From contig NZ_CP019434.1 in NCBI RefSeq assembly GCF_001975725.1, forward strand, positions 2,733,919 to 2,775,321: a DNA stretch of 41,403 bases. The letters are read 5' to 3'. The notes under the pieces were generated by a model. The model was not told the origin of the DNA. It did not search any database and worked only from the letters and a program-made list of their open reading frames with translations. Origin of the DNA: Acidihalobacter ferrooxydans (lineage in GTDB: Bacteria > Pseudomonadota > Gammaproteobacteria > DSM-5130 > Acidihalobacteraceae). The stretch's first letter is position 1, and each line of letters starts with the position of its first letter. The position numbers and the translations under genes were made by a program. Shown here piece after piece: positions 17,232 through 40,430 of this stretch.

Positions 17232-17708
17232 CTATTCGTAGCGTACCGCGAGAATTTCATACTCACGGGTACCGCCAGGCGCATGAACCACGGCGATGTC
17301 ACCCTCTTCCTTGCCGATTAGCGCGCGGGCGATCGGCGAACTGACTGAAATGCGGCCTTTCTTGCTATCGGCCTCGTCCTCGCCAACGATCTGATAGGTC
17401 ACTTCGTCGCCCGTATCCTCGTCCGCCAATTCGACCGTCGCGCCGAACACCACCTTACCTTCGGCATTCAATTGGGTCACGTCGATGACCTGCGCGTTAC
17501 CCAGTTTCGCCTCGATTTCCTTGATGCGGCCCTCGATGAAACCCTGCTGCTCACGAGCGGCGTGATACTCGGCATTTTCTTTCAAATCACCATGCGCACG
17601 CGCTTCCGCGATCGCGGCCACCACGCGCGGGCGGTCTTCGGACTTGAGCTTCTGCAATTCCGTTCTGAGCATCTCGGCTCCACGGAGCGTCAACGGCACT
17701 TTGCTCAT
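17232..17708 (-). CDS. greA: Transcription elongation factor GreA
   Basis: Rescues backtracked RNA polymerase by stimulating transcript cleavage. The N-terminal coiled-coil hairpin (residues ~12-75) ends in the acidic tip region [16 protein letters not shown]. The C-terminal FKBP-like domain carries [18 protein letters not shown]. Length 158. Start at MSKVPLT; an ATG six codons upstream would lie inside carB. Its ATG overlaps the carB stop (ATGA), so it is probably translated from the carB message. Confidence 0.97.
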
Positions 17709-20700
17709 TGTCGGGTCTCCCTGCACACATTCTCTTGATGCAAATCCTGTAGACGGTAAACGGCCTCGTTTTCCAGATACTCCATGGCACGGCCCATCGC
17801 AATCGCCGCAGCAATCGTCGTGGTATAGGTCACCTTATGCTGCAAGGCTTCGCGCCGAATGGTAAAGGAGTCGGCAATCGCCTGCTTGTTCGCCGTCGTG
17901 TTCACAATCAGCGCGATCTGCTCGTTCTTGATCATATCCACGATGTGCGGGCGACCCTCCGTGACCTTGTTTACTACTTCGCAGCTTACGCCCGCGGCCT
18001 GCAACGCAGCCGCCGTGCCGCGCGTCGCGACGATGTTGAAGCCACGCTCGCACAACACCCGGGCGACATCCACCGCACCGTGCTTGTCTTCGTCCCGCAC
18101 GCTGACAAAAGCACAACCGCGCCGCGGCAGTTCTACGCCGGCAGCCAGTTGAGATTTGGCGAACGCCTCCCCGAAGCTGCGCCCGACGCCCATCACCTCG
18201 CCGGTCGACTTCATCTCCGGACCGAGGATCGGGTCAACGCCCGGAAATTTGATAAACGGGAACACCGCCTCCTTCACTGCATAATAGGGTGGAATGATCT
18301 CCTCGCCTATACCCTGCTCGCGCAGACTGCGCCCGGCCATACAACGCGCGGCGATCTTCGCCAGCGGCATACCGATCACTTTGGACACGAACGGTACCGT
18401 GCGCGATGCGCGCGGATTCACTTCGAGCACGTAGATAGCATCGCCCTTGATGGCAAATTGCGTATTCATCAGCCCGATCACGCGCAGCCCCAGCGCCATC
18501 TCGCGCACCTGCTCACGCATGCGCTCAAGCAGCGCATCATCCAGCGAATACGTCGGCAGTGAGCAGGCCGAATCGCCCGAATGCACGCCTGCCTGTTCGA
18601 TATGTTGCATGATGCCACCGATCAGCACCCGCTCGCCGTCGCAAATCGCGTCGACATCGACTTCGATGGCATCATCGAGGAAGTGATCGAGCAACACCGG
18701 CGCATCATTCGACACCTTGACGGCTTCGCGCATGTACCGGCGCAAATCGTCCTCGTTGTAGACGATTTCCATCGCCCGGCCACCCAGCACGTAGGACGGG
18801 CGCACCACCACCGGGTAGCCGACCTGCTCGGCCAACTGCACCGCCTCGGCCTCGCTGCGTGCGGTACGATTGGGTGGCTGCATGAGATTCAACTCGCCAA
18901 TCAGCTTCTGGAAACGCTCGCGATCCTCGGCCAGATCGATAGATTCCGGCGAGGTGCCGATAATCGGCGCACCGGCCGCCTCCAGATCACGCGCGAGTTT
19001 GAGCGGCGTCTGCCCGCCGTACTGCACGATAACGCCCTTGGGGTTCTCGATCGCAATGATTTCAAGCACATCTTCCAGCGTCAGCGGCTCAAAATACAGG
19101 CGGTCGGAAATATCGTAGTCGGTCGACACGGTCTCGGGATTGCAGTTGACCATGATCGACTCATAACCGTCCTCGCGCAGTGCAAGCGACGCATGGACAC
19201 AGCAATAGTCGAATTCAATGCCCTGCCCGATACGGTTCGGACCGCCGCCGAGCACAATGATCTTGTCGCGTTGCGAAGGCAATGCCTCGCATTCCTCCTC
19301 ATAGGTCGAATAGAGGTAGGCCGTGGTCGTGGCAAATTCCGCTGCGCAGGTATCGACACGCTTGTACACCGGCCGCACGTTCAAGTCATGACGGCGGCGA
19401 CGCACGGTTTTTTCGGTTTCGTCCAGCAAGCGTGCCAGCCGACGATCGGAAAACCCCTTGCGCTTGAGCGCGCGCAACGCCTCTGCATCGAGAGCACCCA
19501 TCGACGTACCGCGCAGCGCATTTTCAGTGAGCACCAAATCCTCGATTTGCGCCAGAAACCACGGATCGATGTGCGTCAGTTCAAACACATCGTCGAGCGA
19601 CAAACCCAGCCGGAATGCATCGGCCACATACCAGATGCGCTCTCCGCCAGGCTCGCGCAGTTCCTGGCGCACCCGGGCCAGCGTATCGGGGCCATCGGAA
19701 AAGTCGGCAATTTCGTTGAGCCCGTCGACACCGATTTCCAGACCGCGCAGGGCTTTCTGGAAAGACTCCTGAAAGCTGCGCCCGATAGCCATCACTTCAC
19801 CGACGGATTTCATCTGCGTGGTCAGCCGACGATCCGCGAGGGGAAATTTCTCGAAGGTGAAACGTGGGATCTTGGTAACGACATAATCGATGGTCGGCTC
19901 GAACGACACCGGCGTCGCGCCGCCGGTGATCTCGTTGCGCAGCTCATCCAGCGTATAGCCGACCGCCAATTTGGCGGCGACCTTGGCAATCGGAAAGCCC
20001 GTCGCCTTCGAGGCCAGCGCGGACGAGCGCGACACGCGCGGGTTCATTTCGATCACCAGCAGCCGGCCGGTATCGGGATCAACGGCGAACTGCACGTTCG
20101 AGCCACCGGTGTCTACACCGATCTTGCGCAGCACGGCGATCGAGGCATCGCGCATACGCTGATATTCCTTATCGGTCAGCGTCTGCGCCGGCGCGACGGT
20201 AATCGAATCGCCGGTGTGTACGCCCATCGGGTCCAGATTTTCGATGGAACAGATAATGATGCAGTTATCGGCGCTGTCGCGCACCACCTCCATCTCATAT
20301 TCTTTCCATCCGAGCACCGATTCTTCGAGCAGGATTTCATGCGTCGGCGACATTTCCAGGCCGCGCTTGGCGATCAGCTCGAATTCCTCGCGGTTATAGG
20401 CGATACCGCCGCCACTGCCGCCCATAGTGAACGACGGGCGGATGATCGCCGGAAACCCGATAGTGGCCTGCCCCTGCAAGGCTTCCTCGAAGCTGTGCGC
20501 AATGGTCGCGCGCGGGCATTCGAGACCGATTTCGCACATGGCATCGCGAAAACGCTCGCGATCCTCCGCCATGTCGATGGCGTCCTGATCAGCCCCGATC
20601 ATTTCCACGCCGTACTGCTTGAGCACGCCCTCCCGCGCCAGGTCCAGCGCGCAGTTCAGCGCCGTCTGCCCCCCCATGGTCGGCAGCAGCGCGTCGGGGC

Positions 20701-20944
20701 GTTCCGCTTCGATGATGCGCGCCAGCGTGCGCCACTCAAGCGGCTCGATATAGACCGAATCGGCCATCTCCGGATCGGTCATGATCGTTGCCGGGTTCGA
20801 GTTCACCAGAATGACCCGGTAGCCCTCCTCCTTCAGCGCCTTGCAGGCCTGCGCGCCCGAGTAATCGAATTCACAAGCCTGCCCGATCACGATCGGGCCC
20901 GCGCCGATGATGAGAATGCTTTTGATATCAGTGCGTTTTGCCAT
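17705..20944 (-). CDS. carB: Carbamoyl-phosphate synthase large subunit
   Basis: Makes carbamoyl phosphate from bicarbonate, ammonia (delivered by CarA) and two ATP, feeding arginine and pyrimidine synthesis. It has 1079 residues with the two homologous ATP-grasp halves, each opening with a GxGPxxIGQxxEFDY-type motif ([18 protein letters not shown] near residue 13 and [18 protein letters not shown] near 565). The C-terminal MGS-like domain (~940-1079) binds effectors. Only about nine codon-free bases separate its ATG from the inverted-repeat end of an inserted element, so its ribosome site (GGA five bases upstream) and probably its promoter come from that element. Confidence 0.97.
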
Positions 20945-20948
20945 GTTT

Positions 20949-20971
20949 CCAGGAGCCTGTCGGACTTAGCC
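20949..20971 (+). repeat. Left inverted repeat of the carA-carB element
   Basis: Plus-strand copy of the 23-base terminal repeat, lying five bases upstream of carB's ATG (on the minus strand). It differs from its partner at 21261-21283 at three positions, two of them at the inner end. Confidence 0.6.
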
Positions 20972-21011
20972 CGAATGTTTCACAATTTCCGCCAATCTCG
21001 CGGGCCTCTTG

Positions 21012-21039
21012 ATTTTACTAGGGATAGTTCCTCAGTCGA
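21012..21039 (-). promoter_or_regulatory. Candidate promoter for carB inside the inserted element
   Basis: Minus strand: TCGACT (21034-21039, 4 of 6 to TTGACA), a 16-base spacer, then TAAAAT (21012-21017, 5 of 6 to TATAAT). The start would be near 21005, about 60 bases before carB. It reads outward from the element into carB. Prediction only. Confidence 0.35.
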
Positions 21040-21211
21040 CCGAAATCACCGATTCGCCGCTTCTTCCGAAAGCCCCTTGTGAAAACACTATCCGGCGCGA
21101 CATCAGCACGCGTTTTGAAGCATTCGGGTGAGTGAATTGTAGTGAGGCGCGAGGACAATAAAGGTCAGTTTCCCGGCTTTTTTGAGGACAATAGTGGTGG
21201 TTTTATCCCAC

Positions 21212-21237
21212 AGAAAAGAATGGGTTCCGGACCCATT
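21212..21237 (-). terminator. Hairpin with T-rich tail just downstream of carA, inside the element
   Basis: On the minus strand AATGGGT-CCGGA-ACCCATT forms a perfect 7-bp stem (21219-21237) followed by CTTTTCT. It lies about 50 bases beyond carA and could end the carA transcript before carB. The stem is AT-rich at its base and the T-run is interrupted, so termination may be partial. Confidence 0.4.
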
Positions 21238-21260
21238 ACCCCACCGCCGTAACCGATTCT

Positions 21261-21283
21261 GTCCAAGTCCGGCAGGCTCCTGG
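21261..21283 (-). repeat. Right inverted repeat of the carA-carB element
   Basis: Minus-strand copy of the terminal repeat. It begins four bases beyond the carA stop codon (21288-21290), so the insertion falls immediately outside the carA reading frame. Confidence 0.6.
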
Positions 21284-21287
21284 CTAC

Positions 21288-22430
21288 TCAACATGCCCGC
21301 TCGGCGCGCATCATGTCGACGAAACGGTCGAACAGACCCCCGACATCGTGCGGCCCGGGACTGGCTTCCGGGTGCCCCTGAAAACTGAACGCCGGACAAT
21401 CGGTCCGCTCGATGCCCTGCAAGGAGCTATCGAACAAGGAGCGATGCGTGGCGCGTGCCGTGACGGGCAAGGTATCCTCGTCGACGGAAAAACCGTGATT
21501 CTGCGAACTGATCATCACCTTGCCGGTCGCCAAATCCTGCACCGGATGATTCGCTCCGTGATGGCCGAACTTCATCTTCACCGTGCGTGCACCGCTGGCC
21601 AGCCCCAGCAACTGATGCCCAAGGCATATGCCGAATACCGGCAGCTTTATTTCAAGCAGGGCGCGAATCGCCTCGACAGCGTAGTCGCAGGGCTCCGGGT
21701 CACCCGGACCATTCGATAAAAACACCCCGTCCGGCTCCAAGTCCAACACCTCGGCAGCAGGCGTCTGCGCCGGCACGACCGTAATCCGGCAGCCGCGATC
21801 GACCAGCATGCGCAGGATATTGCGCTTCACGCCATAGTCGTACGCCACGACATGCAGGGGCAAATCCGCGCGGGCGAACGTGGCAAAACCATCCGCGTTC
21901 AGCCAACTGCCCTCTGTCCACTCGTAGCGGCTTTGCGTGGTCACGTCCCTGGCCAGATCCATGCCTTTCAGACCCGCGAACCCGCGCGCGGCGAGCAGGG
22001 CCGCATCGGGCTCGACGACGCCCGCCTGCAGACAACCATTCTGCGCCCCCTTGTCGCGCAGAATGCGCGTCAGTTTCCGGGTGTCGATCCCGGCAATCGC
22101 AACCACTCCCCGCGCGCGCAGATACTCATCCAGCGGCACCTGCTGACGCCAACTGGAACTGCGCAGAGGCAGATCGCGCACCACCAGTCCGCTCGCAAAA
22201 ATCCGCGCGGCTTCCTCGTCCTCGTCATTGACGCCGACGTTGCCGATATGCGGATACGTCAGGGTGACAATCTGGCGCGCGTACGAAGGATCGGTCAGGA
22301 TTTCCTGATAGCCGGTAAGTGCGGTATTGAAAACCACCTCTCCGACGCTTTCGCCGTCGGCGCCGATCGCCTCACCATGAAAGAGAGTGCCATCTTCGAG
22401 CGCTAACAGGGCCGGTCGTTTCAACGTCAT
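21288..22430 (-). CDS. carA: Carbamoyl-phosphate synthase small subunit
   Basis: Glutamine amidotransferase that supplies ammonia to CarB. The N-terminal domain is followed by a class I amidotransferase domain from about residue 190. The catalytic triad is visible: Cys269 in [11 protein letters not shown], His353 and Glu355 in [12 protein letters not shown]. Length 380, as in relatives. I chose the ATG at [14 protein letters not shown]. The frame stays open for 46 more codons to an ATG at 22568, but that stretch reads as structured leader, not CarA. A 35-codon leader frame ends as TGATG at this start, so translation is probably coupled to it. Confidence 0.96.
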
Positions 22431-22537
22431 CACCATCCGGATACAGAAAACGGGAAGGCTCGCAGCCTGTCCCGTCGTAGAATACGCTTCGCACCGCGAG
22501 TCTCTCCGGCGCAGGCGCGCGCCGGGGTGGCTGGCAT
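22430..22537 (-). CDS. Candidate arginine-rich leader peptide of carA
   Basis: A 35-codon frame in the carA leader. It opens at ATG 22537 (or GTG 22552 in the same frame) and its TGA overlaps carA's ATG as TGATG. Seven of 35 residues are arginine. Five fall between codons 18 and 26 (RILRRDRLR), written with CGT, CGA, CGG, AGG and CGA rather than the CGC common nearby. This cluster runs into the 5' arm of a terminator-like hairpin, the layout of ribosome-stalling attenuation. The weak point is the start: there is no well-placed Shine-Dalgarno, and the ATG lies in a small stem. It could be chance in a short frame. Confidence 0.35.
22447..22474 (-). terminator. Terminator-like hairpin (attenuator candidate) in the carA leader
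   Basis: On the minus strand the sequence CGGGA-C-AGGCT-GCG-AGCCT-TCCCG folds into ten base pairs with one bulged C and a three-base loop, then TTTT. The T-run ends 17 bases before carA's ATG, so an RNA ending here would carry no carA. A ribosome halted at the Arg codons around 22472-22480 would cover the 5' arm and let transcription continue. This is seen as structure; the regulatory role is inferred. Confidence 0.5.
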
Positions 22538-22548
22538 CCACCGATGCC
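22506..22548 (-). promoter_or_regulatory. Two further stem-loops in the carA leader
   Basis: Upstream of the attenuator hairpin the leader contains GGCATC-GGTG-GATGCC (22533-22548, 6 bp) and CCGGCGC-GCGCCT-GCGCCGG (22506-22525, 7 bp), both perfect. Neither has a T-run. They may pause polymerase or present alternative pairings. Three consecutive perfect or near-perfect stems in ~145 bases is more structure than the other leaders in this window show. Confidence 0.45.
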
Positions 22549-22581
22549 GCACACTGAAGTCTGTTCATCGGGCGAGCGGCG

Positions 22582-28611: not shown

Positions 28612-28888
28612 AGCCCGTCCGGGCCGCACATGGCCCGAATGCTTCAGAAACGAGCGCCTCAAAAAGCCGTCACAGGCTGGTTCAAACGCAAAGCCCTGCG
28701 CAGTGCGCAACGAAACCTGTCGAATCGAGAGCCGAGGCGCGAACGCGCAGGCGACACCACAATCGCGCAGCGCAGTTTGTTTTCCGAGGCGTCCAAATGA
28801 GTACTGAGATCGCGTCGGAGATGAGTTTCACAAGGAAGTACCGAAGGTGCGGGTCAGCACAGGCTTAACCGATCCGACAGGTTCCTGG
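28612..28888 (+). repeat. Degenerate relative of the carA-carB element
   Basis: Its right end, ccgacaggttcctgg at 28874-28888, differs by one base from the carB-side terminal repeat read on the minus strand. Inner matches in the same orientation are cccgaatgcttca (28634-28646) and tttcacaagg (28826-28835). The left end is poorly preserved (gcccgtccgggc). This looks like a shortened, diverged copy of the same family. The alignment was made by eye. Confidence 0.4.
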
Positions 28889-40178: not shown

Positions 40179-40430
40179 CCCAGAGGGTCTACCCCGGATA
40201 TTCCACACATTACGGCCATTCTCACTGGCCTCCTGATTCCACAAGGGATATATCCTTGGTCGGCCTAATTACCGATCCGCAGAAACTGATGTTCGTCGGG
40301 CCACTCGAGAAATCCGAAATAGTTGCTCTGTGCTATTTATCCCTACAGACTCCATACGAGTCTATTAGTCACATGGCCCGCTCAAGAATGAAGTGCAACA
40401 CCTTTGGTCCAAAGGGATTGGAGGTGGAAG
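40179..40430. other. Spacer between radA and the IS30 element
   Basis: No gene seen. It contains small hairpins: agactc-catac-gagtct (40347-40363, 6 bp) and a caagg/ccttg pair near 40243-40259. One 69-codon frame (40256-40465) has no support. The left inverted repeat of the IS30 element must lie in the last part; I could not fix it. Confidence 0.5.

Follow-up and report, generated by a model that had tools for sequence, protein, structure and literature searches.

MITEs inside operons, MITEs nested in one another and MITEs that form hairpins are all already known, and four described systems lie closest to the one reported here, as outlined in the parts of two articles that deal with them. In Geobacter uraniireducens, the 235 bp MITE Chunjie, which has terminal repeats and duplications, lies in a phosphate-uptake operon; the title of the original report cited there has the operon structure undisturbed, whereas the review itself describes one copy of the two operons as disrupted (PMC10969869). 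The BOX, RUP and SPRITE repeats of Streptococcus pneumoniae are described in the same review as inserted into one another (PMC10969869). The ERIC (IRU) sequences of enterobacteria form a long stem-loop of fixed length, occur in many copies and have orientation-dependent effects on mRNA, the ERIC unit being given as 127 bp with 7 bp ends and TA termini (PMC2229807). The Correia (NEMIS) elements of Neisseria, 107 or 155 bp long with 24 bp ends and TA termini, are reported in that article to be transcribed into hairpins that act on mRNA (PMC2229807).

In a 41 403-nucleotide stretch of Acidihalobacter ferrooxydans DNA (the window), the spacer between carA and carB consists of two small non-coding mobile elements, A and B, one nested in the other. 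This is an insertion of a known type, and A and B are added families. The insert shares with Chunjie the presence of small, repeat-ended elements in an operon, although Chunjie, as the review portrays it, belongs to another family and here two elements are nested (PMC10969869). Nesting is also common to BOX, RUP and SPRITE, from which A and B differ in family and phylum, going by that review's account (PMC10969869). Like ERIC, B is a long hairpin of near-constant length present in many copies, and in that sense it is an ERIC-like element, likened by description. Unlike ERIC, it is approximately 160 bp long with ends of at least 15 bp and CTAG flanks, a separation drawn from the published description of ERIC rather than from its sequence (PMC2229807); the combination of a 127 bp unit, 7 bp ends and TA termini was not found in B. 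Correia/NEMIS elements, again compared by the description given, have terminal inverted repeats and a hairpin in common with B, but with 24 bp ends and TA termini (PMC2229807). Among the titles and abstract openings listed in searches of the open-licence literature, none describes either family. Taken with the evidence below, it is very probable that two MITE-type elements inserted stepwise into a short carA–carB junction, where they are most likely tolerated and read through.

Both genes are on the minus strand, and the start of carB together with the stop codon of carA leaves a gap of 343 nt (20945–21287; table 1). The gap has a G+C content of about 51%, against mostly 58–69% in its surroundings. 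The original prediction described a segment with 23-base inverted ends, 20 of them matching, that fills the gap. These ends were recovered as described: positions 20949–20971 and 21261–21283 match at 20 of 23 positions, whereas the best match in 2000 Markov-shuffled gaps was 16, and a repeat search of the gap returned a 28-nt pair at 86% identity. Once B and its flanks are accounted for, 4 bases are left on either side before the carA stop and the carB start. The longest carA open reading frame, from 22568, encodes 426 aa, while codon usage points to a start near 22436.

Table 1. Features of the carA–carB junction (window coordinates).
Feature	Position	Strand	Basis
carB, carbamoyl-phosphate synthase large subunit	17705..20944	-	Pfam-confirmed; start at 20944
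B left flank CCAG (site type CTAG)	20949..20952		flank counts of 41 own-genome B copies
element B, ~160-bp quasi-palindrome interrupted by A	20953..21279	- (consensus orientation on minus)	nhmmer 21279-21133, E 8.9e-28
A target duplication, left copy TTAG	20966..20969		alignment of copies
element A, 159-bp putative IS1380-type MITE inserted in B	20970..21128	+	nhmmer E 6.6e-48
promoter-like site TCGACT, 16 nt, TAAAAT	21039-21012	-	weak; from changes in window copy of A
A target duplication, right copy TGAG, one mismatch	21129..21132		alignment of copies
terminator-like hairpin AATGGGT-CCGGA-ACCCATT, then CTTTTCTG	21237-21219	-	weak, particular to window copy
B right flank CTGG (site type CTAG)	21280..21283		flank counts of 41 own-genome B copies
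carA, small subunit	21288..22568	-	Pfam-confirmed; longest ORF, start possibly 22436; stop 21288-21290

The segment had been read as a single 335 bp element, a reading that the own-genome copies overturn. A search of the genome with the gap sequence, in which 40 of 237 candidates were scored, gave 45 matches; the majority spanned only about 160 bases, and alignment of these copies told two families apart. B has GAGCCTGTCGGACTT at both ends and a usual length of 157–163 bp, but copies of about 95 and 57 bp and some longer ones also occur; A has CCCGAATGTTTCAYAA at both ends and is usually 158–161 bp, again with some shorter and longer forms. In the window, A sits 17 bases from the left end of B. 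With A and one flank copy left out, the identity of the window B to its consensus is 78.8%, below the median of 95.0% for 58 full copies in the sample, whereas the window A, at 88.7% to its own consensus, is ordinary for its family (median 89.3%, 38 full copies). This difference suggests that B is an old copy and that A arrived later.

Both families are dispersed through the genome, as expected of the mobile insertion originally proposed. Allowing up to two mismatches, the ends of B occur 249 times in 3.45 Mb (119 + 130) and those of A 177 times (91 + 86), against 16 (10 + 6) and 1 (1 + 0), respectively, for the reversed patterns. If ends pair up, this corresponds to roughly 120 copies of B and 90 of A. 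Distinct pieces examined numbered 107 for B (63 full) and 63 for A (43 full). None of these 170 lay inside a called gene, with 14 at locus edges left unclassed, even though coding calls cover 77.7% of the sampled loci outside the elements; the gene caller was crude, and a gene broken by insertion would appear to it as two genes. In relatives, one of 76 copies was intragenic.

Composites or touching A/B pairs were seen at seven further loci (L002, L003, L006, L014, L018, L022 and L082), which raises the alternative that the 335 bp composite is one transposable unit moving whole. At L018, the distance between A and a B end is again 17 bases. By consensus orientation, though, the B end concerned is the opposite one from that in the window, which gives the L018 copy the appearance of an independent insertion. 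The composites differ in which element is the host and in position, A and B usually occur singly, and an A piece touches B in six of 77 B-centred loci (five places), compared with some two to three by a rough intergenic estimate. Movement as a single unit is thus extremely improbable.

For A, a candidate source of transposase is at hand. A is short and dispersed, with 16-base terminal inverted repeats, a target-site duplication and ends common to an autonomous element. Its flanks match at three or more of four bases in 28 of 43 copies, where 2000 shuffles gave a mean of 12.8 and a maximum of 21. An intact IS1380-family transposase gene is resident at 1619501–1620769 (PF13701, 8.1e-162), in an element that carries CTAG and CCCGGATATTTCA at each boundary and whose two ends differ from the 16-base A pattern at one and three positions. 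A differs from the IS1380-family element in being 159–161 bp long without a transposase and in its flanks, most often TTAA, TTAG or TTGA rather than CTAG. These shared ends identify A, at the level of sequence, as an IS1380-type MITE, most likely mobilised by the resident transposase. A second IS1380 at 3194377–3195646 is split over two reading frames. Around the intact one (L201/L223, about 1618000–1621000), a B-like copy with one exact end and the other at three mismatches, a short DDE_Tnp_1 open reading frame and the IS1380 stand side by side.

B is likewise short, with many dispersed copies and terminal inverted repeats. Its flanks are CTAG or variants of it in the source genome and in most copies of relatives; among 41 own-genome copies, the left 4-mers include CTAG (15), CCAG (12) and CTGG (4), and the right ones CTAG (17) and CTGG (9). 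The two flanks of a copy were no more alike than in shuffled pairs (25 of 41 against 25.1, own copies), because nearly all are CTAG-like, and the window flanks, CCAG and CTGG, do not form a direct repeat. The case for a target duplication therefore rests on nested insertions: B interrupts A at L002, L014 and L022, and a 4-bp site that is single in intact A stands CTAG-like on both sides of B. The decay of the CTAG flank seems directional in the 41 copies (CCAG 12 and CTGG 4 on the left, CTGG 9 and CCAG 1 on the right). Vsr repair, which would predict such a pattern, was considered as a cause of CTAGG to CCAGG decay and rejected, as no Vsr gene (PF03852) was found in the genome. An autonomous B transposon was sought at PF01609 places, and none of nine in the source genome or of 19 in nine relatives was bounded by B ends. 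B would have been mobilised by a transposase whose identity none of these places suggests. Read by eye, a 388 bp form at L060 (1501–1888) carries a portion of B as a direct repeat, its middle being made up of other sequence.

Empty sites were looked for in 122 other carA–carB loci, 80 from a genome collection and 42 from 76 matching relatives. The gap could be measured in 119 of them, with a median of 30 nt; 15 exceeded 150 nt, some of the very long ones possibly mis-measured. It was 7 nt in a genome placed in the same genus (G001) and 35, 14 and 35 nt in three of the same family. Neither A nor B was found at any of the 122 loci (E up to 0.01), among them those of seven genomes with B at other sites (G001, G042, G068, G083, G085, G088 and G094). 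This absence indicates an insertion particular to the source lineage among the genomes compared. In spite of the placement of G001, its carB is only 74% identical over 306 bases of DNA, and its CarB protein, at 86%, is no closer than those of other family members. The empty site that the original prediction had suggested looking for was found in relatives, and neither of the findings it had named as fatal, the same segment at orthologous gaps of distant relatives or a lack of other copies in the genome with the repeats judged chance, turned up. Without B and one flank copy, the ancestral gap would have been 12 nt. The likely sequence of events is that B went first into this once very short junction at a CTAG-type site and that A later entered B near its end.

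Other carA–carB gaps contain guests of a different kind. In G084, which belongs to another family, an unrelated palindrome about 82 bp long lies between the two genes (L175, 1806–1942). It is dispersed, the listing for G084 having 80 matches with many places counted on both strands. Its presence suggests that the junction tolerates such insertions. Gaps at L182, L131 and L191 have strong inverted repeats or a low fold z. Palindromes as a special feature of carA–carB gaps were rejected, however: five of 45 gaps of 40–330 nt fold at z ≤ −2, compared with eight of 24 carB–greA gaps, so that there is no enrichment.

The central functional claim of the original prediction was that the insert uncouples the operon, with a terminator after carA and an insert promoter driving carB alone. 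Both sites exist (table 1): a 7 bp hairpin followed by a T-rich tail, and a promoter-like site matching at 9 of 12 positions. On the operon strand, their order is the one that uncoupling would need. The hairpin has only three G–C pairs, however, and its T run is broken. Neither named site is present in the consensus elements: at the place of the hairpin, AATGGGCCCATT stands in the B consensus and there is no loop, so that the loop, like the −10, comes from changes particular to the window copies, the A consensus differing at the −10. A scan of 441 bases found one promoter where 0.2 were expected and two terminator-like sites, on opposite strands, where 0.4 were expected; the same scan of the surrounding 10 kb gave 11 terminators against 6.8 and three promoters against 2.3. 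A near-consensus copy of B has no terminator-like or promoter-like site. A near-consensus A likewise lacks a promoter-like site; it does contain two further weak matches of terminator type, one per strand, where 0.3 are expected, a point in favour of the uncoupling claim. Since the named sites are weak, near chance and absent from near-consensus copies, the evidence does not support an uncoupling of carA from carB, and we consider a terminator and promoter acting in this way very unlikely.

Read-through is the likelier course, with the carB start region paired to sequence behind the carA stop in the fold model. A folding energy of −129.7 kcal/mol was computed for the gap's sense RNA; its z-score varies with the control used, being −4.2 against dinucleotide shuffles and only −1.9 against Markov samples. 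The end repeat had been credited with supplying the ribosome-binding region of carB. The last bases before carB, CTGGAAAC, are in fact the flanking CTGG plus host sequence; what stands is that they adjoin the end repeat and, in the predicted fold, pair with the repeat that follows the carA stop. In the same model, the unpaired probability of the carB start region rises from 0.31 in the free RNA to 0.53 when the footprint of a ribosome at the carA stop is held open. carA and carB would still form one transcription unit, with RNA polymerase reading through an insert that becomes a long hairpin in the RNA, and a ribosome finishing carA would open the basal helix, so that coupling could persist. 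On this account the insert is most likely tolerated rather than functional.

Whether B is more than a passenger is a separate matter, on which its distribution bears. Among 95 genomes, B was matched in 12 (the source, one of the same genus and ten from other families) and A in seven (the source, the same genus and five others). Of the ten other families, nine, all of the same class, have a B profile match close to full length, and the match in G025 is partial; blastn identities of near-full matches to the own-genome consensus are 68–79%. Copies elsewhere are mostly 156–161 bp, with longer ones in G085 and G042, and a plasmid collection gave one match to B, a partial one in Pseudomonas. G071 had 103 first-look candidates for B and no match among the eight scored; these perhaps belong to another repeat family.

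Forty B copies from ten genomes and nine families (six from the source genome; G042 and partial copies left out) were examined for covariation, using the RNAalifold pairs and five inner pairs added by hand. The hairpin scores 0.350, against 0.120 when shuffled and at most 0.103 for slid versions, with 93.9% of cells paired (80.0% shuffled) and two-sided changes at 23 pairs (18.7 shuffled; seven of 500 shuffles reach 23). The A hairpin is weaker, with two-sided changes at 17 of 32 predicted pairs (23 copies, seven genomes, no shuffle control). One orientation folds better by about 15 kcal/mol in 22 of 23 A copies and in 38 of 40 B copies, where it is the minus one. In the source genome, B pieces that lie between co-directional genes have the stabler orientation in the sense RNA in 38 of 51 cases (38 to 13, p = 0.0006), and in 17 of 24 when loci added after the first count are taken alone (one-sided p = 0.03), whereas A shows no such bias (14 to 13). 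A replication-strand bias was tried as the cause of the B bias and rejected (plus/minus 33/22 in one replichore, 24/25 in the other).

These observations could mean that B is a hairpin under RNA-level selection, an ERIC-like element of mRNA processing or stability, for which the covariation, the better-folding orientation and its prevalence in sense RNA all speak. The covariation, though, was judged against shuffles that are blind to relatedness, with a structure derived from the same alignment, and a transposition hairpin or template-switch repair of palindromes would also yield it. The orientation bias did not recur in five relatives (19 against 16), which led us to reject a general RNA-level rule, and the window B itself lies in the less stable orientation. 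Distinct G–U changes exceed A–C changes in B within the source genome (19 to 8), while the counts do not clearly differ otherwise (37 to 28 for B over all genomes; 33 to 32 and 29 to 28 for A), so that strand-specific selection on RNA appears weak. Rfam 15 gave no covariance-model match at window positions 20600–21600 (E up to 1); at six loci searched with E up to 0.5 it gave a tRNA and, overlapping a B copy, MIR1219, which was not accepted (E 0.24; 25.5 bits against a gathering score of 79). Selection of B at the RNA level is unlikely. A bolder version, in which the transcribed hairpin serves host mRNA, its pairing being kept in at least nine families, and also acts in carAB as a zipper, is distinctly unlikely; if true, the zipper would hold the carA stop beside the carB start and coupling would be kept despite 331 inserted bases.

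On the preferred reading, of two tolerated insertions, an odd operon gap becomes a record of successive nested insertions that can be placed in order, and two dispersed repeat families are described. B is the more notable of them for its near-constant length, covarying hairpin, CTAG-type flanks and near-full-length presence in nine further families. The locus also offers a natural test of a 340-nt hairpin between two subunit genes that need production in step. For annotation, such repeats explain spurious open reading frames and apparent promoters or terminators. Further partial copies of A lie within the window itself, at 40193–40283 on the plus strand (nhmmer E 2.3e-16) and at 28792–28852 on the minus strand (E 1.3e-7).
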